Origin: Ustilago trichophora
Taxonomy: Eukaryota > Basidiomycota > Ustilaginomycetes > Ustilaginales > Ustilaginaceae
Direction of reading: 5' to 3'
Length of the DNA stretch: 64,000 bases
NCBI GenBank assembly: GCA_900323505.1
Contig: OOIN01000024.1
Location: 680,151-744,150, forward strand
The notes beneath the pieces were generated by a model. The model was not told where the DNA came from. It did not search any database and saw nothing but the letters and a program-made list of their open reading frames with translations. Below are positions 49,819 to 64,000 of the stretch, piece by piece (the stretch's first letter is position 1; the number at the start of each line of letters is the position of its first letter). Both the position numbers and the translations under genes were made by a program.

Positions 49819-50082
49819 ACGGATGACATCATTCTTGCAAGGTCAAACCCTAGAACCCGCCCCTTTGCTTGACAGTCCCACTTGCTTTCAAGCGAGTGGG
49901 TCAGGTGTGGCTGTGATGCTGGCCCGGTTCCACCTCAGAACAGATCGTTTCTTATCTATCCTTCCATCGTAGCAATCACACCATGCCTTGATCCTACATC
50001 CGCTTGTTTGAGATTTGCTTCTCGATAGATTTTTGGCCTTTTCGTCTCCTTTCCATGTACTTTACACACACACAGAATAACG

Positions 50083-50100
50083 CCTAGCCCTAGCCCTAGG
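50083..50100 (+). repeat. Interstitial CCCTAG tract (degenerate telomere-like)
   Basis: CCTAGCCCTAGCCCTAGG: about three CCCTAG units, one base different from CCCTAA, the complement of TTAGGG. They are opposite in orientation to the terminal array. Confidence 0.6.
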
Positions 50101-51144
50101 CCGCGGTGCGCCAGCCGCGGGAGAAGCACCAGTCCGTCCCGCCAAAATGGCCAACCTGACCACGCTCCGTCAGCCTGAGGGACGCATCAAAAAACACTGG
50201 TGCAGTGCCGCAACGGAAAATTCTTTTTCCTTGGCTGGGCAGCGGACAGGTGGGTGACGGACGCGTCAAAATTCAGGGAAATTGCTAGCGTGACAGACAC
50301 GCTCACCCACACTTCTCTAGTGCCTGACAGACCAATCCAACTTTTTGGCTGAGCGGCCCACTCACCCAGCAGACTCACTGAGCTGTCCGTCACTTCACTG
50401 ACTGGCAGACAGCATGAGTGACAGACATGACTGACTGACTGACTTGGTGAAGTGACAGACGTGACTGACTGGCAGACATGATTGAGGAAGTGATTCCTGC
50501 TGCAGACATATGCAGTGATCAGGTGTGTGACGGTGACCAATGTGTACCCATGGACTGCAGCAGACGGACAAAACTCAAATACAAACATTGACAGACAATG
50601 TCAAAAAATATGTCTGCCAAAAAAATCTGATCAGAATGCTGGCCTCAAAATTGAGAGCGCAATGTGTCCTTGGAGCAAGGAGCGTGACGCGTCTGGGTAT
50701 GAGTAGACGGACTTTCATTGCACCGCACACAATTTGACTCTGCGCTGACTGACTGACAGACGCGTCAAATTTCAGTGAATTCATCTTGGCAGCGTGTACA
50801 TCCTTCAACAGCACTCTGAACAGCGGCTGGTCCGTCAAGTCATGGCTCCTTTGTCTGGAAGCGTGTGAAGGACAATGTTGAGACAACAGTCAATGACTCT
50901 CACGGCTGGAACCAACAAAGCTAACTCAGATGCTCCCAAGTGCAGACCGTTGCTTTGAGTTTGCTTTGTGTTTGACGGACAGACTTTCTCACAGCTTGAC
51001 TTTGACGTACTTGTCCTTTGTCCGCCATGCACCCACACCCTTGTCTGTCCTTCACACGCTGTACACCTTTGTCTGTTGTCCATTGTCCGTCACACACCAC
51101 AGATCTTTGTCTGCTTGTTGCTCACCGCACAGCTTTGTCTGTCC

Positions 51145-51284
51145 GTCACTGAAACAAAATTTTCCACACCGCTCACAGATCTGCGCTATCCTTTCTTGAC
51201 TTGATGGCTTTACGGTCACTGAAACAAAATTTTCCACACCGCTCACAGCTCTGCACTATCCTTTCTTGACTTGTTTGCTTTGCA
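51145..51284 (+). repeat. 70-bp direct duplication upstream of the helicase gene
   Basis: Two adjacent near-identical copies (51145-51214 and 51215-51284) that share GTCACTGAAACAAAATTTTC and the following CACACCGCTCACAG...CTATCCTTTCTTGACTTG. They differ at only a few positions in the first 60 bp. Confidence 0.85.
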
Positions 51285-51580
51285 GTGTGTGTCTGCATGA
51301 GCGTGAGTGCAAGTGAAACCATCTTACCTTTGTACGTTTCCCTCTTGGACACATTGAGTGCTTCAAGTGGCTGTTGCTGTAACCCGTTACGCTTGCTGGA
51401 ATCCTTGACCGTGTACGTCTGACTGTGCTTGCTATGTGCGCTGCTTGTCTCCTCTGAAGCATATATACTGTGCCTTTCTGACCGTTGCTGACCATCATTG
51501 CTCATCAATCCAACAATCCATTCCAGCTTCTCTCTACCGTACTCTACCACTTTTATCCACCGCCAGCAAATTCTTCAACC

Positions 51581-54500
51581 ATGTCTCAGCAATCTTTCCA
51601 TCCTGATGACAGCGTACTTGCTGCTGAACTTGTTGATGCAGGCATCGACACAATTGACGCAGTCAGTGATACGGACAGGTATGTTTGGGCAATCATCACC
51701 ACGCATCATCAATGATCAGCAGCTGACATCACTATTTGCATTTTTTGAATTCAGTCACGCTCTCCCTGCTGCCAACCAAGCCGCAAATCAAGAAACCGCC
51801 ATTTCCACTCCAGTGGATCCTCAGCACACCGCTCAGCTGGCACGCTTCAACTTACGCTTGGTGGACCATCCCCGCATCCTGCTCTGCACCCTGGACAGCT
51901 GTTGTCCTCAATTGCCGCTCATCCCAGACTTCAAGCACGTCACGGCTCACATCAAGAAGGTCCACAAGAAGCCGCTGGTTGGGTCTGCCAAGGAGATGCT
52001 GCGTAGCCTCCTTGATGAACTGGATGTACCGTCTCCTGGCACGGTCTGCATCAACAAGGATCTTCTGCCAGAGCGCATGATTCCTGAGCTGGGTGAGCTC
52101 TTCCAAGGCTACCGCTGCAACTTGTGCTCCTATGCCGTCCAAGCCAAGTCTGCTTTCTACGAGCATCTGCGTGGGCATCCTGATGCTAAAGGCAGAGCAT
52201 CGTACACCCATCCTGTTCCCATGCAGAAGTTGCACGAGTGCGGCAAGAAGATCCGCTACCTTCACGTCCGCAATCAAGATCTGGATCCCACACCGCCTCC
52301 TGCCATTCTCACCACCGCTCTGGATGCAAGCACCATCAGCGCCAATATCAAGACAAAGGTGGATGCCTTCCTCAAGCAGAATGAAGATTGCCTCCGTGAA
52401 GCAGACCTGCTCAAGCCAGGCATTCAGCCTGAATCTGCCAGCGGCAACATTGGTCCTTGGGCCAAGCAGCTGGGTTGGCATGCGTACTGGGCTGGCAAGC
52501 CTATTGTGGCCATTGGCGCACTCAGCAAGTCAAAAAAGGTGTGGCCTGGTGCTCATATAGACTTTGTCCATTGGGTATTGGTCATGACACAGCAAGCAGC
52601 CGCAACATGGATGACGGCTTTCCTCAAGACTGGCAGGCAGGTGCAACAGACTTTCCGTGCCTACAGTCCTGAACCAAGCCAGCCGTACAACCTCAGCCTA
52701 CCAACAGTCAAGAAACGTGCGGACATGTGGGCCTTTTTACTTGCTCTGCTTATCCATGCGGTCTTTGACGGTGTCTCTTTTGGCTATTACGGTGACAGTG
52801 ACCAGACTGAGCATCTTGGTCTCAGCGCACACCTGGACTCTGTACTGCAAGATCTGCATGATCTTTACTACGGTGCAGATGCAGACATTGATCCGCTCAC
52901 TGATGAAGATCTGGCAAGCAAGGCAGTGCCGCTCCTCCTCCAACTCTCTCACCTCTTGGTCACGCAACAGCCAGAGGTGTATGGTGAGAATGACAAGCTT
53001 GCTTTGGTACGGCTGTTCCTCCACCTCTGCGTCAGCGCAGATGGCACTCCCATTCCAGTCAATGCCGCTACGTCCATCATTGCCAGCTTGGAGTTCTGCT
53101 GCCGTGCAGTGCTCTGGCAGTGGCTGTTGGATCCAGAAGATGGTGTGCTCATTGAGCGCTCTGCTGAGGAGATTGCTGCCGAGGTTGATCTACAGATGAA
53201 GCGCTATCTGTACAGCACCAGCAGCTCCGCCAGCTCATACCTACAATCCCTTCACCGGTATGGCACAGTACTTGCGCAAGATGATGGCACCAACTTCCAC
53301 TTTTCCTGGCAGCAAGATCTCAAGAGCGTCAAGTTTGGAACAGAGACCATCCAAGTGGACCGTCTCCAAGCTCTGATGCATGGTGCGCAAAAGCGGGCAG
53401 AAGCTTTGCTACGTCAGCTCTGCCTTTTGCCAGAGGATGCATCACTTGCGCTCAACCTGAAGCACATTCTGGATGATCACCGCAACATGCAACCAGACTT
53501 CAGCTTTGTGGCCGCTTCTCCGGAGCTGCAGAGCATCAGCAGTGTTCTCTGCCGTGCTGCTGCTGGTAACGTACCTGCTGCGCAACCCCTCATGGATCCA
53601 TACTCTGATGAGTTGGAGTTCGATGCAGATGCTGCCAATGCGTACTTCAGCATGCACAATGAATTCACCAAGCTGCTTGCGGTGCTCATTGAGCTTGGTA
53701 GCGGTCTGCCTGCAAGAGGTACAGAGCTGCTCCAATTGCAGCACACCAACACGCTTGTTGGTCCACGCAACCTCTTTGTGCATGATGGCAGTGTCTTCAC
53801 CGCTCTGCCCAGCAAGAAAGGCACTGGACGTCAAAAGGTGATTCCACGCTTCCTGCCATACCCAGTGGGATGCATGGTGGTCTTTTACGTAGCTCAGGTG
53901 GTGCCGTTTGTCCATCTCCTACATAATGCAGTGCTGCAGCCCCGTGCGGCCAGCTCTATGCTCTTGGTGGACCATCACGGCAATGCATGGGAGACAAATG
54001 CCGTCACCAAGATGCTGCAAGCACTCTGCCAGGAGCACATCAGCTCTATCACGGCTGGCCTCAACATGCGCACTTGGCGGCAACTGGCAGTGAGCATTGA
54101 CCGCAAGCTCATCCGTCCGAGGTCCATGACTGCAGAAGAGGTGTTGGACAGCGCTCACGATCTTCAAGCTGGACATTCAACACGGACTGCAGAGCAGCAC
54201 TATGGCCTGGATGCAAGCATGCTGCATCAGCTCACGCAAGAGAGCATGGATGTCATGTTGGAAGTGTCAGAGCGGTGGCATGCATTCTGGGGTATGCCAT
54301 CCCGCTTTGAAGAGGACGTCAAGCCATATGACCACCTCATGGCAGGAAAGGCAGCAGGAGATGACTGCAAGGCAGTATCTTCACTGAAGCGGCAGCTGGA
54401 TGCTTTGCAGGAGGACATGCGGTGTGTCAAGCAAAGGCTGGAGCATCCAATTGAAGTTGCTCCACCAAGCGCTACAAGTGCGGTGCCTGCTGCCCCCATT

Positions 54501-56570
54501 TCACGCTCTGCTGTGCTAGCAGAACCAGTCAGCAATGCACTCTTCAAGGTGACCGGCAGCCACCGCACCAAGACACTGGAGCAGGCCTATGCGCTCAATG
54601 CCATCTATGCCAAGGAGACACCACTGATCATTGTCATGGCCACTGGGTCCGGCAAGTCTGCACTTTTCATGGCACCGCTGCATTGGCTGCCGCCAGCCTC
54701 TGTCATTATTGTGGTGGTGCCATTCATTGCACTCACAGATGATCTGATGGAGCAGTGTCAGTGGGTTGGAATTGTGGCAAGCAAGTGGACAGGCTACCGG
54801 AGTGCAGACAGAGTAGAGGGCAGTCAGCTGGTCTTTGTTGCAGCAGAGAACTGCTACAGTCAAGCATTTGCCAACTGGGCGCAAGAGTTGGATCAGCAGA
54901 AGCGGTTGGCAGCCATCTTCTTTGATGAGTGCCATGTCTGCGTAACTCAAAACACCTTCCGTCCGGCAATGGAGAAGATCAAGGCACTCATCTCTGCTGT
55001 GCGGGTGCAGCAGTACTTCCTTACGGCTACGCTGCCACCAACTCTGGTTCCCACCTTCAAGACCACACTCTGTCTCCCGCAAGATGGTACTGGCATGATC
55101 AGGGCGGCCACCAACCGCAAAAACATCTCCTACAAGGTCCAGCAACTTACATCAAGTGTGGAAATGCCATTCCAAATCAAGCGTCTCCTTGAAGCTCACC
55201 CTGCCGGTGCAGTGATGATCTTCTGCAAGTCCACCACTGCAGCACAAACCACAGCGGAGGATCTCAATTGCACTTGCGTGATCGCAGACATGCCAGAGGA
55301 GCAGAAGCAGAGAACGGTTTCAACATGGTTGCGGTGTTCTGCCACAGAGACCAACACTGGCAAACGCGTCATTGTTGGAACAACAGCTATCGGCACAGGC
55401 ATCAATCCGCAACATGTCAGTCTGGTGGTCCATTGCGGTGATACATGGGACATGGTCAGTTACGTGCAAGAGTCAGGACGCGCTGGACGTAGTGGCAGTG
55501 GAGCATCAGCGGTGCTGTTGGCCACCAGAGTCCAAACACGTGAAGCACAGGTGCAGCTCTACATAGAGGAGCGTACTTGCCGGCGTCTGGCCATCTCACG
55601 CTATCTGGACGGAATGCCGGTGACTTGCCTCAGCCAGCCAGACTTTGCGCTGTGCGACCTCTGCCAGCAGCGTGTGGAAGGACCAGTCACACCGCCAAAG
55701 AAGATCATTGGCTTGGAGTCACCGCCAGAGTCTGACAAGCGTGAGCGGCAGCAGAATGGCAAGACCCAGACTGCTGGTCAACTCCAAGCTGCAAACAGCA
55801 GCAGTAGGCGGTTGCAAGTCAGCACCACGGCCTTGGATTCACCTACACCACGTCAGCGGCGGCATCAAGGTTTTACGGCAGCTCTAGACCTGAACCATCA
55901 GCACTCAGCAAGCAGAGGAGCGCCAAACCAGATATTATCCTCCACTGCTCAAAACCAGCTTCAGCCAGCATTGCCGGTTCTCAGTTTTACGCCTCCGCCA
56001 TTTGCATTCAGCCTAAGTCCATCACCGGCACATCCACCTGTGCACATTGACATTGACACATCAAGCAGCAGATCGCTACTGCAGAGCCTTGCCGGTGTGT
56101 GCTCTTTGTGTTACCTCTTCCGCAACCAGCACACATGCTCTGGACAACATGGAATCCGACACTCTTTCAGCAACTGCAACTGCTGGCCGCAAATCAAGGA
56201 CAAGTTGCCACAATCAGAGCCACGCATCAATGCAACCTACATTGGCGGCCTCAAGCGCCGCATGCAGAAAGCAAAGCACATTGCTTGTTACGCATGTCTG
56301 GTTCCCATCAACATTTGCGCCAACACCAGCTCAACCAATTCTACAGCATGCTCATGCAGGTATGCTGACATTGTGCTGCCCGTAGTTGCGGCAGTGCTCA
56401 GATGCAGAGAGCACACTGCCAATGTGCTGCGGTTGATTGGCTTGGATCAGATGGACCCACATGCGGTAGTGGTACAAGGTGAGCTAGGTACAGCCGTGAC
56501 CTACAAAGGTGAGAGTATGCTTCTGGCATTTGCCATGTTTGCAGCGGCTGTAGAAGCAGCGGCTATGTAG
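51581..56570 (+). CDS. Telomere-linked protein: C2H2-like finger, tyrosine-recombinase-like domain and RecQ-type helicase
   Basis: Exon 1 is 51581-51678 (MSQQSFHPDD...) and exon 2 51755-56570, with a 76-nt intron (GTATGT, internal CTGAC, TTCAG), giving 1637 aa. Near residue 150 is a C2H2-like finger (YRCNLCSYAV...FYEHLRGH). Residues ~560-880 read as a tyrosine recombinase: ARGTELLQL (Arg 687), SKKGTGRQKVIPRFLP (Lys 720/721), MRTWRQLAVSI (Arg 805/808) and AGHSTRTAEQHYG (His 840, Tyr 849). The helicase follows: ATGSGKSAL (~995), DECH (~1088), FLTATLPPT, GTTAIGTGINPQHV and QESGRAGRSG (~1272), then CDLC and a Cys/His-rich tail (VCSLCYLF...CSGQHG...CNCW, CYACL). Subtelomeric RecQ-like helicases are known from Ustilago (UTASa) and other fungi. 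The recombinase reading is mine, from motifs. The gene is intact and points to the telomere. Confidence 0.85.
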
Positions 56571-56940
56571 ATAGAAGACTTTGCATGTTTCTCAAAATAA
56601 ATCAATAATTGCATTTCCAGAGTCTGTGAAAATGCAGACAAAGTGGAGGCCTGACGCGTCAATGAGGTTGAATGAGTCCATCTCAAAGAGACGCGCAAAT
56701 TTCAGAAATTGGTCCATCTCAAAGAGACGCGCAAATTCCAAGAATCAGTCAGTCTCAAAGAGATGGATGAAAATTCAAAATCAGTCCGTCTCAAAGAGAC
56801 GGATCAAAATCCAAACTGGACACGTCTCAAAGAGATGGATCAAAATCCAAACTGGACATGTCTCAAAGAGATGGATCAAAATCCAAACTGGACACGTCTC
56901 TTTGAGTTGGATCACACTTCCCATGGTACATCACACCACA
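56571..56940. other. Spacer between the helicase and the first oxygenase gene
   Basis: Mostly filled by the 36-bp minisatellite listed separately. It also has one ACGCGT at 56654-56659 and AATAAATCAATAA near 56597, a possible polyadenylation signal for the helicase transcript. Confidence 0.6.
56679..56914 (+). repeat. 36-bp minisatellite of GTCTC-AAA-GAGAC hairpins
   Basis: Seven units with spacing near 36 bp, most containing (A/G)TCTCAAAGAGA(C/T)G; complete palindromic copies read GTCTCAAAGAGAC. Later units share GGATCAAAATCCAAACTGGA. The last unit carries the loop in the opposite sense (GTCTCTTTGAG). The array is open in the frame of the downstream gene and would encode a 12-residue SKRxxKIQTGHV repeat, but the gene most likely starts after it at 56941. 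Confidence 0.85.
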
Positions 56941-58074
56941 ATGACATACATACCTGTACCTGGCGGCACTTCTCAAGCAGATCAGAAGCGCATCAAGAGG
57001 CTGCAGTACAGCCTTGCGTCCATCAATGCCAAGACGTACACCCTTGACAAACAGTACAAGGTAATGGAGAAGGATCGGCAGGCAAAGTGCTCTTGGACCT
57101 TGCCCATCATCACCGGCCAGGCCATCACCTCTTTTGATGACTGCAAGAACACAGTCTACACCCACAACATCAGCCTCCAGGACAGCAAGACCGGGAATGT
57201 CTTCCTCCAGCGCTTCTGTCCGGCCACTGAGTCTGCTGCCTCCAGCATGACCAAGAGCTATAGCAAAGGTGCCACCTTGTTCCGCAAGGTCATGGAGACA
57301 GCCAAGTGCAAGAAACACAAGGCAGACACTCGGCAGACAGTGGATCAGCAGCAGCACTTTCCACACTACCACTTTGGCATCTGGTACGACAAGATGATGG
57401 TCAGCTTGACTCTATTGGAAGAGACTCAGCAGCCAGGCAGGGAGGAAGGCAGGCAAGCTGTGGCGGAGTTCTGCATCTGGTTCAAAGAGTTCACCCGCAA
57501 GTTTGTTCTCCCCATCATCAAGAATGGCCACTCTGGTCTCTGTGATACCTTCAGGTCAGAGCTTCAAGAGCGCATGGATGTCCACTTCCCTTGGGCAGAG
57601 AAGCAAGTGGATGACCTGGACCGGTACTGCCACCCGCTGTACTCCACCATCTCACCATTCCTTGGCTTCTCCAGCAATGTGCACAAAGACGTGAAGGATG
57701 CAGACGTGTCTATCCTGGTCAACCTCGGACAACATGCTCTCTTGCAGCTGCCAGAGTATGGCATAGCAGTGGAGCTGCAACCACAAGACATCGTCATGTT
57801 CCTTTCCAACAGCGTGGAACACCTCACCGTCCAACACCCAGCTCATGTAAAGGCAAGATCAGACCCTGGAGAGCACATGGCCATCAGCTGCTTCTTCCGC
57901 AAAGGGCTTCAGCAACAGAGAGAGCCAAAGAAGCACAACCATACATACTACGCAAGGAAGGCAGAGGAGGAGCAAGAGGCAGAGCGGCAAGCAGCATCAA
58001 AGAAGCGCAGGGTGGAGCAGTGCGGTGAGGCTGGGGGACTTGCCTCTGGAGCTGTAAAAAAGAGTCCAGAATGA
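56941..58074 (+). CDS. Tet-like 2-oxoglutarate/Fe(II) oxygenase, copy 1
   Basis: A 377-aa protein from ATG 56941. The C-terminal half is a double-stranded beta-helix: NVHKDVKDADV gives the iron ligands His 248 and Asp 250, NLGQHALLQLPEYGIAVELQPQDIV the central strands, and VEH the distal His 294, 46 residues on. CFFRKG supplies an Arg in the position that binds 2-oxoglutarate. The HxDxxD core and overall layout match the Tet/JBP-like oxygenases that are expanded in basidiomycetes and oxidise 5-methylpyrimidines in DNA. The tail is Lys/Glu/Gln-rich with an SKKRRVE nuclear-localisation-type string. Substrate is inferred from family only. The frame stays open upstream through a 36-bp repeat, so an N-terminal repeat extension is possible. 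Its stop codon lies inside a hairpin. Confidence 0.6.
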   Translation: MTYIPVPGGTSQADQKRIKRLQYSLASINAKTYTLDKQYKVMEKDRQAKCSWTLPIITGQAITSFDDCKNTVYTHNISLQDSKTGNVFLQRFCPATESAASSMTKSYSKGATLFRKVMETAKCKKHKADTRQTVDQQQHFPHYHFGIWYDKMMVSLTLLEETQQPGREEGRQAVAEFCIWFKEFTRKFVLPIIKNGHSGLCDTFRSELQERMDVHFPWAEKQVDDLDRYCHPLYSTISPFLGFSSNVHKDVKDADVSILVNLGQHALLQLPEYGIAVELQPQDIVMFLSNSVEHLTVQHPAHVKARSDPGEHMAISCFFRKGLQQQREPKKHNHTYYARKAEEEQEAERQAASKKRRVEQCGEAGGLASGAVKKSPE

Positions 58075-58190
58075 CAAGTCCCCCAGCCAAAATTGCTTTC
58101 GAGAATCAGGCAATGAATTTTGGCTGGTGAGCACAGAGGGGGACTTGCCTGTTTGTCGAAGCAAAAATGGCTGAAAGAGACAAGTCCCCC
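58031..58190. repeat. Cluster of three inverted repeats between oxygenase copies 1 and 2
   Basis: CTGGGGGACTTG (58031-58042) pairs with CAAGTCCCCCAG (58075-58086). GCCAAAATT (58086-58094) pairs with AATTTTGGC (58116-58124). GGGGGACTTG (58138-58147) pairs with CAAGTCCCCC (58181-58190). The same GGGGGACTTG stem is thus used twice. The first hairpin covers the stop codon of copy 1. Confidence 0.9.
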
Positions 58191-58301
58191 TCCAGGCTGG
58201 GCTCTCGAGAAAGATTCAACCAGTAGACACCAGCTCCACCATAGAATCATCCATCATCGTTCCATATCCACTTGCCAGCAATCCAATCATCCATTCCAGC
58301 C

Positions 58302-59327
58302 ATGCCAGCCAAGGGTGAAGCAGCTTTGGATCGAAAGAGGAAGAGGAATGCAGAGAGAGATGCCTGCAGGAGGCAGAGCTATCGAGACTCCCAGGAAGAA
58401 TCTACCCACATTGATCTGTCTCGACAACATCATATCAAAAGGCACACAGACCTCAGCCAGTTTGATCTTATCGAGTGCAAAGCACTAGCAGAAGGCAGCA
58501 GCAGCCATTCAACTCGACCCAACCTTACTCTAGCAGACAGAGACACCAAAGAGATCGTGCTCCAGAGGATTGCACCCACCAGCTATGCCAAGTTTCTCGA
58601 AGCCAAGAAGAGTTCCCTCATAGGCAAGCACCTTTATGATCAATATCTGGCAAAGAAACCCATCCCCATCTCGACAATCAGCACACAGAAGCTCAAGATC
58701 AAGCTCACCAAGAGAAAAGTCATCGAGCATCACCTAGGAATCTGGCACTCTCGAGGCAAACAGACTCTGGACTTCACCAAGGAGACCACTGACCCTCGAT
58801 ACAAACCTGAAGCACTCGATCTTCTCTTCTGGGCAAGGATGCACACAGACCTGGTGATGAGAACTGCACAACCTTTGATCCATCCCAGCTTCAGGAGCAA
58901 CATTTCATCTCGATCCAAAGGCAGAAAGTGGCTAGCATCCATCTTTGGTTCCAAAAGCATCGAGCTTCTCCATCCCTGGTGGACTACTGTAGCCTTCTTC
59001 TCGAACTTTGCAGGTGGCATCCATCTCGACAATGATGACTGCATTCCATCCTTCTTATTCAACTTTGGAAAAGCTGCTTGGATCGAGTTACCAGAGTTCT
59101 CAGTCAAGATCCTTGTCGAACCTATGGACTTGGTCATCCTCAACTCTCGATCTTTTTACCACAGGACCAGACCCTTCGTTCCTCCTGGACACTCTGCTGC
59201 TGCAAACAGGTGGGCATTCAGTGGATTCTTTCGAGATGCCATCTATCATAGAGAAACAGTGTGCAAGGTAGCAGAATGGAGGCTCGATAGCATCTTTGGG
59301 TATCAGTCAAAAGGAGGATCATCGTGA
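58302..59327 (+). CDS. Tet-like 2-oxoglutarate/Fe(II) oxygenase, copy 2
   Basis: A 341-aa protein from ATG 58302; the frame upstream has no better ATG. A basic start (DRKRKRNAERDACRR) may be a nuclear signal. The core reads GIHLDNDDCIPSFLFNFG (His 241, Asp 243), then IELPEFSVKILVEPMDLVIL and FYHRTRP with distal His 287, again 46 residues after the first. RWAFSGFFR gives the conserved Arg. It shares with copy 3 the blocks LNLTLxD / VNLTLLD, LQRIAPTS / FQRISPTS, HLGIWHS / HLGFWSE, PSFLFNFG and RWAFSxFxR, so these two are closer to each other than to copy 1. The likely activity is oxidation of a methylated base; that is family inference. Confidence 0.6.
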   Translation: MPAKGEAALDRKRKRNAERDACRRQSYRDSQEESTHIDLSRQHHIKRHTDLSQFDLIECKALAEGSSSHSTRPNLTLADRDTKEIVLQRIAPTSYAKFLEAKKSSLIGKHLYDQYLAKKPIPISTISTQKLKIKLTKRKVIEHHLGIWHSRGKQTLDFTKETTDPRYKPEALDLLFWARMHTDLVMRTAQPLIHPSFRSNISSRSKGRKWLASIFGSKSIELLHPWWTTVAFFSNFAGGIHLDNDDCIPSFLFNFGKAAWIELPEFSVKILVEPMDLVILNSRSFYHRTRPFVPPGHSAAANRWAFSGFFRDAIYHRETVCKVAEWRLDSIFGYQSKGGSS

Positions 59328-59690
59328 CTTCCAGCCATTTGGCAGGAGGTCTCGTTCCATCCAGTTGGGGGGGATTTTGGCCTCCACTCTGAAATTCAGC
59401 TTTGACCCCCAGATTTCCTTTCGACTTGAAAAAATTTGCTCTCCACCAAAAAGATTCTCGTGTTTCCTGGCTGGGAGCTTCGGGCCTGCTTGGCTGCTCT
59501 GTGCAAATTGGAAATAATTTGTAATCAATTCCCATCTCCTGTTAAGCTGGGTCCCCCAAAATCATCAATTAATTCAATCATGTTTGCGTTCCTCAGGTCT
59601 CTGCACTCAAAAGATGCCACAACTTGAGTTTTTCACTCCAAGCACCCAAAGGGTTTATATACATTGCTTTACAGCCATGTCCCTGTATCT

Positions 59691-60296
59691 CAGCAACCAG
59701 ACATGCTGGCTCTACAATCAATTGCTCATGACCTTCCTGAGCTCCAGGAGAGTGTCACCATATCAATAGCTCTTCACAATTGCCAGTCACCGTAGAGCTA
59801 TGCTCACATGGCTGTAAGGTCACCTATATACTTCCTTACAGCCATGTGACCATGGAAGCATCATATCAAGAGCATCAAGTGTGATATTTGGCTCTTGACC
59901 ATCTCTTGGATGTCAGGAGTGTCATGAGCATCAGAGATGTGGGTTTGGACAAGCCATGATGCTGCAATGGTCACATGGCTGTAAGGTCACCTATATACTT
60001 CCTTACAGCCATGTGACCATTGCAGCATCATATCAACAGCACATTGTGTGATATTTGGCTCTTGACCATCTCTTGGATGTCAGGATTGTCATGAGCATCA
60101 GAGCTGTGTGCTTGCAAAAGCCATTGCCGAGATTTGGTCACATGGCTCTAAGAGAGTATACAGGTGACCTTATAGCCATGTGAACCTAGCTCTGCACTGA
60201 CTGGCAATTGTGAAGAGCTATTGATATGGTGACACTCTCCTGGAGCTCAGGAAGGTCAAGAGCAGAATATTGTAGAGCCAGCATGTCTGGCTGCTG
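59691..60296. repeat. 606-bp palindrome with three phased hairpins
   Basis: Arms of about 161 bp (59691-59851 and 60136-60296) are inverted copies of each other. Inside, the hairpin CACATGGCTGTAAGG...CCTTACAGCCATGTG occurs near 59805 and again near 59972, and a variant (CACATGGCTCTAAG...TATAGCCATGTG) near 60139. Start-to-start spacing is exactly 167 bp twice. The centre of the whole palindrome (about 59993.5) is the centre of the middle hairpin. Sequence between hairpins is a direct repeat (TGTGATATTTGGCTCTTGAC...). Confidence 0.85.
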
Positions 60297-60450
60297 TCAG
60301 ACATCAAAGCACTCTTCTATATACATCAGCCTGGCAGAGGCCAAGCCAGAGATGTGCTCTGACAGGCCTGAAATAGGTATAGGAAGCTGGGTCTGGTCCA
60401 GAGAATCATAGAACACCCCTCAGCATAGAAGATATCATCCATTTTGAGGT

Positions 60451-61144
60451 ACTTCACTATAGCATTGGTATGACTTGCATATATGGACACTTATACCAAT
60501 GCTATAGTAAAGTTGCTGGTTTCTTGACCGTTTTGAGTGCTCCAGTTTGCAGCATACTCCTGATGAGCTGGTGCTACTTCCTGTAAGCCCAGATCCTGGA
60601 TCCAAGGTGATGATGGTCCAGGCGTCATCTCAAGCTCCTCCACCTCAGCCACCGGTAGTAGTATATAAAGGTGGATTGAGACCTGAAGCATGTAGGAAGT
60701 TGCACTGGGATGAGAGGATGCCAAAACACTCCTTAGCGTGGGAGATACCACCTGTTTCTAGGCACTTTACTATAGCATTGGTATAACTCATGTATATGGA
60801 CACTTATACCAATGCTATAGTAAAGTACCTCAGTATGTGCTTGTTTTGGTTGCTCCAAGCTGTGCTGTACTTGTGAGAGGGTGGAGCAGATTCCTACATC
60901 CTTGAATCAATCAATCAAAGCTTTTCACCTACACTGCATGTCTAGGGTGTCCCAGTATATAAAGCCAGTCAGCACTGGCAAACTCAGATGAAGTCTGATC
61001 CTAGATCTGAGCATGAAGGAAGTTGCACTGGGACGCCAGGATGTCAGAACACTCCTTAGCATGGAGGATATCTTCCGTTTTGAGGTGTTGTACTATAGCA
61101 TTGGTATAACTTGCATATACTGGCACTTATACCAATGCTATAGT
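60451..61144. repeat. Three ~60-bp hairpin units in larger ~320-bp repeats
   Basis: ACTATAGCATTGGTAT and ATACCAATGCTATAGT form near-perfect stems around a ~20-nt loop at 60451-60513, 60764-60826 and 61092-61144. Stems recur about 313 and 323 bp apart, and flanking sequence is also repeated (GGAAGTTGCACTGGGA and ACTCCTTAGC occur before copies 2 and 3), so the unit is part of a diverged tandem repeat. TATATAAAG strings precede copies 2 and 3. Confidence 0.85.
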
Positions 61145-61555
61145 GAAGTTGGTCAACTCTTCACCGTTTTGAGGTCTGTAAAGAGTATGATGCTTGGCAC
61201 TAGTCTCTCCAGCCTCCTTGTACATCAGAATGATGATAGCATGTTGGTATTGGCATCCCACATGCTGGATTGATCATGTATATACCAGGTCAGACCACTA
61301 AGTCTTCAGGAGATGAATTGCAAGGGTACAGGGAGATGTACCAGCTGCTGTGGACCTACATGTATCCATCTGCTGTGGTAAAACGTAACCTGCAGCTTAA
61401 GGTCCTTCACCAAACCAGCAAGTTTCTTCATGATTACCTGTTGAACTCAGCATCTCAATATCTCTATCCAAAATGAAGGCTGCAAAATTGCTGCATGCTG
61501 TCACCTGTCTGTATCAGAGAAGCTGATTGCTACATACACTAGATCTTTCCATTGA

Positions 61556-62476
61556 CTACACATTAGCACCCCTGATCCTCCATGTGGGTTCTTCTACCTC
61601 ACTGTCAATCCTAGCCTGGGAAAGGTTGTGGGGAGGCTGCTTCTCATAGAACACCTTCCTCATGAAGGCAGAGAAGGCCCACCTGCCTTGCAGATCCTGG
61701 TCAGGAGAGTAGGTGGAGTGGAAGTTGCTGGTGTTGAAGATCACCACATCCAAATGGTCCAGCTGAATGTCCACTCCATAGTCTCTGAGCCTGACAATGG
61801 TGGGAGCACCAAAGTTGAAGAGGAAAGAAGGGATCTGATCCTTTTGATCCTGGTGGACACCTGGAGTGGTGGTGTTGAAGAAGGTGCAGGTAGACCACCA
61901 GTCAGGCAGGACCGCCACCTGATCCTGCATAAAGTCCCTGAGCCAGGCCATGGAATCCTTCCTTGTGTCAAGGTGTGCTTGCCAGTCTTCATGAATGAGA
62001 GGGTAGAGGGTACTGAGGTAGAGATCAGAGTGTTTCCGAGCCCAGTTGAGGAGTGGCAGAGCATGCTGGTTGTGGGTGGGGTGACGACTCATGTTGTATT
62101 TGGGATTGCCCATCTCACTCCAGAAGCCAAGATGCATGTGGCCTCTAGATTGGTCCTCCCTATGGTGGGTCTGAGCACGCTCATAGAGCTCCAACCCCTC
62201 CTTTGCCGATTTGTTGGCTGCCAGCTGCTTGTCAAGTGATGTTGGACTGATACGTTGAAAGATGGGCTCCTCTGTCTCTGCATCCAGAAGGGTCAGGTTG
62301 ACCTTGACTGGCTCAGCCATTCCCTCCACCGCATGTGGCTGTCCCACTAGATGGTACTCCTCCTGCTCCCCCACCTTCTCCAAGTACAGTGTGTCCGGGT
62401 ACTCCTTTGCTGCATTGATCCTAGCCCGCTGATCCTTGAGCCTCTTGTTGTGCGCCTTCTGCTTGTTGGTTGGCAT
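61556..62476 (-). CDS. Tet-like 2-oxoglutarate/Fe(II) oxygenase, copy 3
   Basis: A 306-aa protein from ATG 62476 (MPTNKQKAHNKRL...), transcribed away from the telomere. After a basic N-terminus it has VNLTLLDAETEEPIFQRISP and HLGFWSEMGNPKYN. The catalytic core GVHQDQKDQIPSFLFNFG gives His 208 and Asp 210; VDIQLDHLDVVIFN and NFHSTYS give the distal His 253, 45 residues on. GRWAFSAFMRK carries the conserved Arg. All iron ligands are intact, so it should be active. It is clearly homologous to copy 2 but quite diverged, which argues against a recent duplication. It is the last gene before the telomere, about 1.3 kb from the TTAGGG array. Confidence 0.6.
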   Translation of the reverse strand: MPTNKQKAHNKRLKDQRARINAAKEYPDTLYLEKVGEQEEYHLVGQPHAVEGMAEPVKVNLTLLDAETEEPIFQRISPTSLDKQLAANKSAKEGLELYERAQTHHREDQSRGHMHLGFWSEMGNPKYNMSRHPTHNQHALPLLNWARKHSDLYLSTLYPLIHEDWQAHLDTRKDSMAWLRDFMQDQVAVLPDWWSTCTFFNTTTPGVHQDQKDQIPSFLFNFGAPTIVRLRDYGVDIQLDHLDVVIFNTSNFHSTYSPDQDLQGRWAFSAFMRKVFYEKQPPHNLSQARIDSEVEEPTWRIRGANV

Positions 62477-63322
62477 CGTGATGGTTGTTGGTTCTTGCAA
62501 TTCCTGTCCTGTCTTGGTGGTTGTTGGTTCTTCCGCTTACTTGGGTTGTTCTTGATGTTGGTTGTCTCTTGAAGTCCTTTCTTTGCTTGCTTTCTTGGAA
62601 TATTTGTTGAGGCTGTTGTCAACTTCTTGAGTGTTACACCAGAAGGTGATCTCCAAGTTCCACTGTCAATTGTAGTTGGCCAAGCCACAACTAACAGGGA
62701 ACTATGCAGGAGACAAGGGTCTGGGCAGGAGCTCTGTATAGGGACTAGTCACCTAAGTCAAGAGACAGCACCAGTACACCTTATAACACGTTGACTTACC
62801 TGGAAACTTCTTGAGGCACACTCTCAGGCACACAGTCACACACAAATGCTGAAAAAGCAACAAGGGAAAGGCTAGGAAGTCAGGGTGGAAGGGTCATATA
62901 TATACCTTCAAGGGGCTGGACATTTGCCACCTAATTTCACTTTGCTGGCCATGTTGGAACCATGCAGAAGCTTGTAGAAGGTTCCAGCATCTGCATCCAG
63001 AAGATTCCAGCTGTTTCCATTGCACAGCCACAAGCACAGCCACAAGCACAGCCACATTTCCACAAGATTCTAGCAGATTCCATGAGCTTCCGGCAGATTC
63101 CACAAGCTTCTATCAGCTTCCAGCAACTTCCATTGTGCACAGCCACATACACAGTCATGCTCCCACAGCTTTCTGGTACATTCCACAACATTCCACCAGG
63201 TTCTGTAGGCTTCTACCAGCTTCCAGCAAGTTCATACTGCTGAGCCACATGCACAGCCACACTTCCTCAAAGTTCCAACAGGCTGTGCAAGTTCTCAGCA
63301 AATTCTGTTAGATTCTACAAGC

Positions 63323-63381
63323 TTCTAGAATGTTCTCTTGTGCACAGCCCCACTTCTCCAAGATTCCAGAAGGTTCCGGAA
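63323..63381. promoter_or_regulatory. Heat-shock-element-like sites next to the telomere
   Basis: TTCTAGAATGTTC (63323-63335) has three correctly spaced TTC/GAA units; TTCCAGAAGGTTCCGGAA (63364-63381) has four. Further imperfect arrays occur near 62967-63007. These fit the nTTCnnGAAnnTTCn consensus of heat-shock factor, but the whole region is TTC-rich, so chance is possible. Confidence 0.4.
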
Positions 63382-63483
63382 CAATCCCAAAGACTCTAAC
63401 AGATTCCAGCACATCTACATCCATAGTTCCACAAGCCTCCAGTACATTCCACAGGCTTCCAGCATCTTCTGCAAACACGCAAG

Positions 63484-63745
63484 CATGGCAACCATCTCGA
63501 CACATTCCCATCAACTCGATCATCGACACAGCCAACACGCAAGGGCCAGTACACAACATGGACATCTCGGAAGATCCAACACGCAAACACGCAAACAACA
63601 AGGCATAGGAGACCATCGGTGCTGGAAACGGGTGTCGACAGCTCATGGACAGTGTCTGCCAGCATTGTCAGTGATCATCAGAGGGCATGGCAACCATCTC
63701 GACACATTCCCATCGACTTGATCATCGACACAGCCAACACGCAAA
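63484..63745 (+). repeat. 202-bp-spaced direct repeat just inside the telomere
   Basis: About 60 bp starting CATGGCAACCATCTCGACAC (63484) recurs at 63686 with only a few changes and ends in CAGCCAACACGCAA. ACGCAA/ACACGCAAACA short repeats lie between and after. Confidence 0.85.
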
Positions 63746-63778
63746 CACGCAAGCTCACCGTAATCATCCCAGGCATGG

Positions 63779-64000
63779 TTAGGGTTAGGGTTAGGGTTAG
63801 GGTTAGGGTTAGGGTTAGGGTTAGGGTTAGGGTTAGGGTTAGGGTTAGGGTTAGGGTTAGGGTTAGGGTTAGGGTTAGGGTTAGGGTTAGGGTTAGGGTT
63901 AGGGTTAGGGTTAGGGTTAGGGTTAGGGTTAGGGTTAGGGTTAGGGTTAGGGGTTAGGGTTAGGGTTAGGGTTAGGGTTAGGGTTAGGGTTAGGGTTAGG
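63779..64000 (+). repeat. Telomere, (TTAGGG)n
   Basis: About 37 TTAGGG units run to the end of the window, with the G-rich strand reading 5' to 3' toward the end as expected for a right chromosome end. One variant TTAGGGG unit occurs at 63947-63953. Confidence 0.98.

Follow-up and report, generated by a model that had tools for sequence, protein, structure and literature searches.

Gene content of the chromosome end

The window analysed here is a stretch of 64,000 nucleotides from the smut Ustilago trichophora (C23:680151-744150), taken from the one genome analysed (38.8 Mb in 45 contigs, with 90 contig ends). It finishes in a telomere and carries, ahead of it, a helicase gene (HEL) and three oxygenase genes (TET1, TET2 and TET3), which we describe below as parts of a chromosome-end element (Table 1). 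Contigs are designated by C and a number, L and R denote contig ends, and counts from genome-wide searches are lower bounds. An earlier note on this DNA had placed three oxygenase genes of the TET/JBP type, and no other genes, in the interval from the helicase gene to the TTAGGG array. We confirm this observation: overlapping open reading frames (ORFs) aside, no ATG-started ORF of at least 120 aa occurs in that interval.

Table 1. Features of the chromosome-end element in the window
Feature	Position	Strand	Remarks
Whole element	50083..63776	.	13.7 kb, from inner terminus to telomere
Inner terminus	50083..50100	+	CCTAGCCCTAGCCCTAGG; three units here; CCT is the junction trinucleotide
Inverted repeat	50101..50120	.	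CCGCGG-8 bp-CCGCGG; adjoins the terminus; possible recombinase arms
HEL exon 1	51581..51678	+	Agrees with P0021
HEL exon 2	51755..56570	+	Zinc-finger-like region (sub-threshold), tyrosine recombinase, RecQ-like helicase
Tyrosine recombinase region	52503..54380	+	Residues 300-925 of the ORF from 51606; AlphaFold2 (AF2) model, PDB comparison, column counts
Helicase core	54579..55496	+	DEAD and Helicase_C, Pfam 3.4e-14 and 1.2e-14; profile matches to RecQ-family PDB helicases
TET1 oxygenase	56941..58074	+	Pfam Tet_JBP E 7e-4, under the curated cut-off; His in the 2-oxoglutarate (2OG) arginine column
TET2 oxygenase	58302..59327	+	H241, D243, H287; R303 likely the 2OG arginine; AF2 pLDDT 81.7
TET3 oxygenase	61556..62476	-	Homologous to TET2; complete at 7 ends
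Telomere	63777..64000	+	TTAGGG repeats; array read in the sequence

Joined, the two HEL exons encode 1637 aa, of which 1635 are identical to the database protein UTRI_00931, and the start proposed at the ATG at 51581 was borne out. Judged from its sequence and structural model, the telomere-linked helicase (TLH) encoded here combines a tyrosine recombinase and a RecQ-like helicase in one protein, in agreement with the fusion suggested previously. The predicted fold of the recombinase region (AF2 model against PDB) matches Xer/Cre, and the candidate catalytic residues R704, K744, R825, H857 and Y866, numbered in the ORF from 51606, stand for an R, K, R, H and Y that column counts find near-invariant across 31 fungal sequences; the first position of box II is mostly R, Q or H, and not always H. 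Relatives at 19-60% identity retain the catalytic residues. A PDB profile search with the HEL alignment returned helicases among the best 60 of 262 matches, and a RecQ-like helicase core is present at many telomeres of this genome. Telomere-linked helicases are known from several fungi, where they have been guessed to act in telomere maintenance.

The three oxygenase reading frames are open and carry the HxDxxD motifs HKDVKD (TET1), HLDNDD (TET2) and HQDQKD (TET3), followed by a distal His after 46, 46 and 45 residues, respectively. TET2 and TET3 are 31% identical (E 5e-46), TET1 and TET2 24% (E 2e-20) and TET1 and TET3 22% (E 2e-12); TET1 is 99% identical to the U. trichophora database protein UTRI_00930. 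The metal triad is invariant in 22 aligned sequences, six of which match Tet_JBP at E up to 0.1, and it aligns with that of NgTet1. For the double-stranded beta-helix of TET2 (AF2 model) the nearest solved folds are CcTET of Coprinopsis and NgTet1 of Naegleria, which share the HxD and the distal His; the oxygenases here differ from them in standing at only 12-16% identity, with a substrate that is predicted. Matches to DNA TET enzymes come ahead of those to other 2OG families, and the refutation named in the earlier note, a match to a non-DNA 2OG family, is thus not borne out. TET2 and TET3 read RWAFS at what we take, from the anatomy of TET2, to be the 2OG-arginine column.

A precise inner terminus and its CCT targets

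On its inner side the element ends sharply. DNA 5' of HEL matches other contig ends from window positions 50076-50090 onwards, and the flank inside that point is common to C20 alone. The same boundary is found in the window and 39 other copies; 38 of the 39 start with CCTAGCCCTAG or, at C19R, TCTAGCCCTAG, comprising one and a half to three units, and in an old copy inside C43 it reads CCTAGCCATTGG. The terminus takes the form (CCCTAG)2-3 and then an inverted repeat, whose arms are exactly complementary in 19 of 40 parsed termini (41 given), partly through paired changes (CTGCGG/CCGCAG). Flanks vary between copies, with the exception of a few related pairs (C5R/C30R, C41R/C30L and C2L/C30L inner). 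Searched genome-wide at up to three mismatches, the terminus pattern gave 38 matches, against none for the reversed control; these are spread over 34 of the 90 contig ends, none of them more than 14.5 kb from the end and every one pointing outward (the divergent termini at C38R, C43 and C12 lie outside this count). At four ends (C2L, C7R, C16L and C30L) a new terminus is set directly on a truncated older copy.

The genome was then searched with 34 flanks of 100 bases (24 + 10) and unoccupied relatives were fetched. Counting targets inside truncated elements, 15 independent unoccupied sites were obtained, and in 13 of them CCT stands exactly at the joint, common to target and terminus: C31L; C5R and C30R; C32R; C16L outer; C4R; C2R; C2L and C30L inner; C16L inner; C33L; C25L; C2L outer; C18L; and the C7L inner terminus, for which the C28L flank represents the unoccupied state. 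At one fixed place, CCT is expected by chance in about 1 in 64. The preceding base is C in 25 of 41 cases, and the sequence 3' of the target in the unoccupied version is absent from the occupied ends. The assembly seems to hold two haplotypes, since its methyltransferase loci are paired, and some ends may therefore be alleles; the unoccupied relatives are not all alleles, because several are repeats. Two further candidates were left uncounted: C20 as an empty allele of the window flank, where homology ends about 21 bases before the joint and C20 continues for 11 kb, and a relative of the C9R flank at C30, where homology also ends before the joint.

Such junctions could in principle result from end capture, in which broken ends pair through microhomology with the telomere-like CCCTAG terminus, unaided by the recombinase. 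The likeness of the terminus to telomere repeats, the variable repeat number and the fact that junction identity is often just 3-4 bases are compatible with this. However, random joining should use other repeat phases and lengths, and with CCT used at 13 of 15 sites we consider end capture quite unlikely.

The telomeric side, truncation and copy number

The element has one terminus only, its outer side being the telomere in 29 of 29 ends read, all of which finish in 120-219 bases of TTAGGG. The stretch beyond TET2 is common to 17 contig ends, with the full outer part at six and cuts at differing points in 11; the remaining ends are cut earlier. Genes are lost in order: full HEL is found at 22 ends, TET1 at 18, TET2 at 17 complete and one cut (C4L), and TET3 at seven complete and two cut. 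The lack of an oxygenase at ends that carry the helicase had been named as evidence against a linked system, yet at all four ends with full HEL and no complete TET1 (C11L, C19R, C23L and C44R; C11L also holds a short tandem piece) the telomere cuts before or inside TET1, so that the absence is explained by truncation. Another 16 contig ends have HEL, TET1 and TET2 complete, a further one has TET2 cut, and the same order recurs at C12 at about 50-62% protein identity, an arrangement far beyond chance given this recurrence. Together with the common inner boundary and the outward orientation, the repeated gene order upholds the proposal of one chromosome-end module.

HEL matches 28 places, 22 of them at full length with 99-100% identity, plus a divergent match at C12 (51%); the full-length copy at C30R has an internal stop. 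The 5' region (window 50083-51605) falls into classes of 90-92% and 96-100% identity with other ends, which, set against the near-identity of the full HEL copies, makes a mosaic.

Such near-identity could also be that of a passive subtelomeric repeat. Like yeast Y' or U. maydis UTASa, it would spread through break-induced replication and ectopic recombination, with the recombinase a relic and the TET genes hitch-hiking. Telomere-linked RecQ genes are known in many fungi, and with the element in place, ends could be copied by host recombination, as the two 5'-region classes (the lower at ~90-92%) would allow. Homologous copying, however, does not make some 30 different junctions at one terminus beside different flanks, nor does it yield CCT in so many of the targets, and the retention of catalytic residues among distant relatives also argues against a relic. 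We therefore regard a passive repeat as unlikely.

The geometry also recalls MoTeR, FoTeR and Penelope-like telomeric elements, and with them a retroelement-like mechanism: the opposite strand ends 3' in CTAGGG repeats, with a cut on the 5' side, and similar geometry is described for telomeric retroelements of M. graminicola and Fusarium. Against it, the Pfam matches of the four element proteins include no reverse transcriptase, and all 22 full-length HEL copies match across the intron region. Retention of the intron speaks against a spliced sense RNA intermediate and leaves an antisense template possible. On these two grounds the retroelement reading is disfavoured, and we judge it improbable.

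CpG depletion and DNA methyltransferases

CpG depletion begins at the element boundary. In 1-kb steps the observed/expected ratio averages 0.94 over the preceding 50 kb and 0.40 within the element, with a fall to 0.1 next to TET3; a value of 0.67 is both the minimum outside and the maximum inside, and the comparison with other repeats took in the flanks (0.68). At codon boundaries TET3 has no CpG where 30 are expected, whereas six window genes outside the element have ratios of 0.76-0.98. Minor variants among the copies read are of the C-to-T type in 9 of 16 cases, seven of the nine at CpG.

DNA methylase matches were found at four places (C32, C38, C24 and C19). The C32 gene matches PF00145 at 1.3e-29, with a sub-threshold BAH match, and retains PPCQGFS and ENV, which we take to be the DNA methyltransferase motifs. 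The matches at C24 and C19 fall in long open frames (2527 and 2545 residues), which may point to DNMT5.

Since CpG depletion starts at the boundary and methyltransferase genes are present, 5-methylcytosine is the likely TET substrate, and the TET enzymes probably oxidise methyl marks on the element's own DNA. Neither base J nor thymine oxidation is supported here, no search for a glucosyltransferase having been made. More generally, the TET proteins might serve the host in a domesticated form of telomere modification, base J-like oxidised thymine included, as their family and their location at chromosome ends would permit. This seems to us highly improbable, as they are missing through truncation at many ends, the mutational mark sits on CpG, and the divergent copy carries TET genes of its own.

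Repeated palindromes (CACATGGCTGTAAGG... and TATAGCATTGGTATAA...) occupy window positions 59800-60183 and 60440-61160, in the CpG-poor stretch before TET3, and are possibly small inverted-repeat insertions. A 36-base tandem repeat lies at 56675-56914, between HEL and TET1.

Divergent copies and other smuts

The second element, at C12, holds HEL', TET1', TET2' and a telomere in the order of the window element, with the terminus CCTAGCCCTAGG at about C12:896545. Between the window and C12, the proportions of synonymous (pS) and nonsynonymous (pN) differences are 0.70 and 0.34 for HEL (dN/dS 0.23; HEL taken as the ORF from 51606, the first ~50 codons of which precede exon 2), 0.60 and 0.22 for TET2 (dN/dS 0.22), and 0.83 and 0.35 for TET1, where synonymous sites are saturated and no ratio is given. 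These values indicate purifying selection. A 171-aa basic ORF lies between the C12 terminus and HEL' (positions 896-1411 of the stretch read); in the window element no comparable ORF of at least 120 aa is found on that strand between 50083 and HEL.

Other divergent copies were encountered. A C12-like terminus at C7:13740-13901 lies inward of the main C7L element (13.8 kb), at a CCT target, and the divergent subfamily thus seems, on sequence, to use CCT too. At C38R a HEL piece of a divergent subfamily, 54% identical and cut by the telomere, is stacked on a TET3-like gene with a frame-split match. C43:109917-110503 is an old, 73% identical copy of the first ~565 bases of the element, inside the contig and with a degenerate terminus. 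C32:430549-435089 holds an internal divergent pair, TET2-like and TET1-like (43-52%), about 118 kb from a contig end, and the two stretches read there gave no HEL match.

In U. loliicola, relatives of TET1 (NDA16_004184) and HEL (NDA16_004185) bear adjacent tags and are recorded on contigs of equal length. The HEL relatives of other smuts had no TET partner among the hits found, and TET cargo is therefore not established as a universal trait. Scans of IMG/VR with both alignments (TET and HEL) did not confirm relatives.

Proposed mode of movement

We suggest, with rather more confidence than doubt, that we are dealing with a mobile element that inhabits chromosome ends: its recombinase would link the CCT at the terminus with CCT targets near ends, so that the tip is replaced, and its TET proteins would oppose CpG methylation. 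The assembled sequence itself presents the precise terminus, the CCT identity, the outward orientation, the TTAGGG-capped truncation and the stacking of new copies on truncated ones. The recombinase would cut or exchange strands at the CCT of a target near a chromosome end, the cut target would be joined to the CCT of the element terminus, and the whole tip would be replaced, whether through crossover or through copying out to the telomere with the help of the helicase. Oxidation of 5-methylcytosine at CpG in the element by the TET proteins would then counter silencing by host DNA methyltransferases. Precise termini, target sites and stacking give the look of a mobile element, and a domesticated host gene is disfavoured on the same grounds. 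From the interpretation in the earlier note, the TET/JBP affinity, the recombinase-helicase and the chromosome-end module are supported; thymine oxidation and domestication are not supported.

Several observations weigh against this proposal. A Pfam scan of HEL residues 300-925 gave no match at all, which is why structure and conserved columns were used to recognise the recombinase, and Foldseek alone matched it weakly (E 0.05). The target at C7R reads TCT (in the window and in the next C7 copy), and that at C11R reads CCC in a 97% relative; a three-base identity could, moreover, come from microhomology joining. As only one terminus is known, the normal product with two core repeats is never seen. 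In 21 of 40 termini the arms of the inverted repeat pair imperfectly; the C12 element, where the repeat is not retained, is one of these. On the oxygenase side, no protein of the genome exceeds the curated Pfam Tet_JBP cut-off (34.9 bits; best 24.6 bits), and the window TET1 has His (HMAIS) in the putative 2OG-arginine column, so that the late Arg expected of three intact enzymes fails in this copy, while the open frames, HxDxxD and distal His hold for all three; among 18 TET1 copies, 13 have Arg, four Cys and only the window copy His. Finally, U. hordei has the helicase, yet searches with TET1 and TET2 gave no U. hordei-labelled protein (most proteins being unlabelled).

As for the C7R site, C18L is telomere-capped at the very nucleotide (AATTTGAC) where C7R gained its new element, and this common capping point may explain a site without CCT.

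Relation to known systems

Telomere-linked helicase elements (U. maydis UTASa, fungal TLH regions, yeast Y') are alike in having a telomere-adjacent RecQ-like gene at many ends, often truncated; the element here adds a tyrosine recombinase, a precise inner terminus, a CCT target and TET genes. Crypton tyrosine recombinase transposons (Kojima and Jurka 2011, PMC3212892) share the recombinase, and their short repeats are thought to be the recombination substrate, whereas our element has one terminus, the telomere as its other end and a fused helicase. Telomeric retroelements (FoTeR and the M. graminicola element, also MoTeR and Penelope-like elements) resemble it in telomere-like inner-end repeats, truncation and tandem copies, and differ in encoding a reverse transcriptase. 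TET-bearing fungal DNA transposons (Kojima 2025, PMC12730594) likewise carry TET/JBP genes on mobile DNA, with a role against transposon methylation that is proposed and stated as not validated. Those transposons belong to the DDE or Helitron kinds and come from rusts, mushrooms, morels and truffles, and a search of the paper's text finds none of the terms Ustilag, smut and Crypton; the four proteins of our element have no DDE transposase or HUH nuclease among Pfam matches at E up to 1. In a largely open-access literature we found no fungal paper linking RecQ telomere genes with a tyrosine recombinase, and none on TET genes at smut telomeres.

More tentatively, and just short of an even expectation, fungal telomere-linked helicases overall might be tyrosine recombinase-helicases that drive an undescribed class of tip-capturing DNA transposon with one site-specific terminus and one telomere, the smut members having acquired TET genes to demethylate their own copies. 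If true, the recombinase domain, terminus and CCT target would make telomere-linked helicases mobile elements with a testable reaction, and the likeness of chromosome ends and the loss of tips would be explained. By way of the TET cargo, transposon-borne demethylation would reach an element free of DDE transposase and also the smuts, among which U. maydis is recorded as lacking DNA methyltransferase genes (PMC7862722); old high-performance liquid chromatography data in the same paper nevertheless report methylcytosine.
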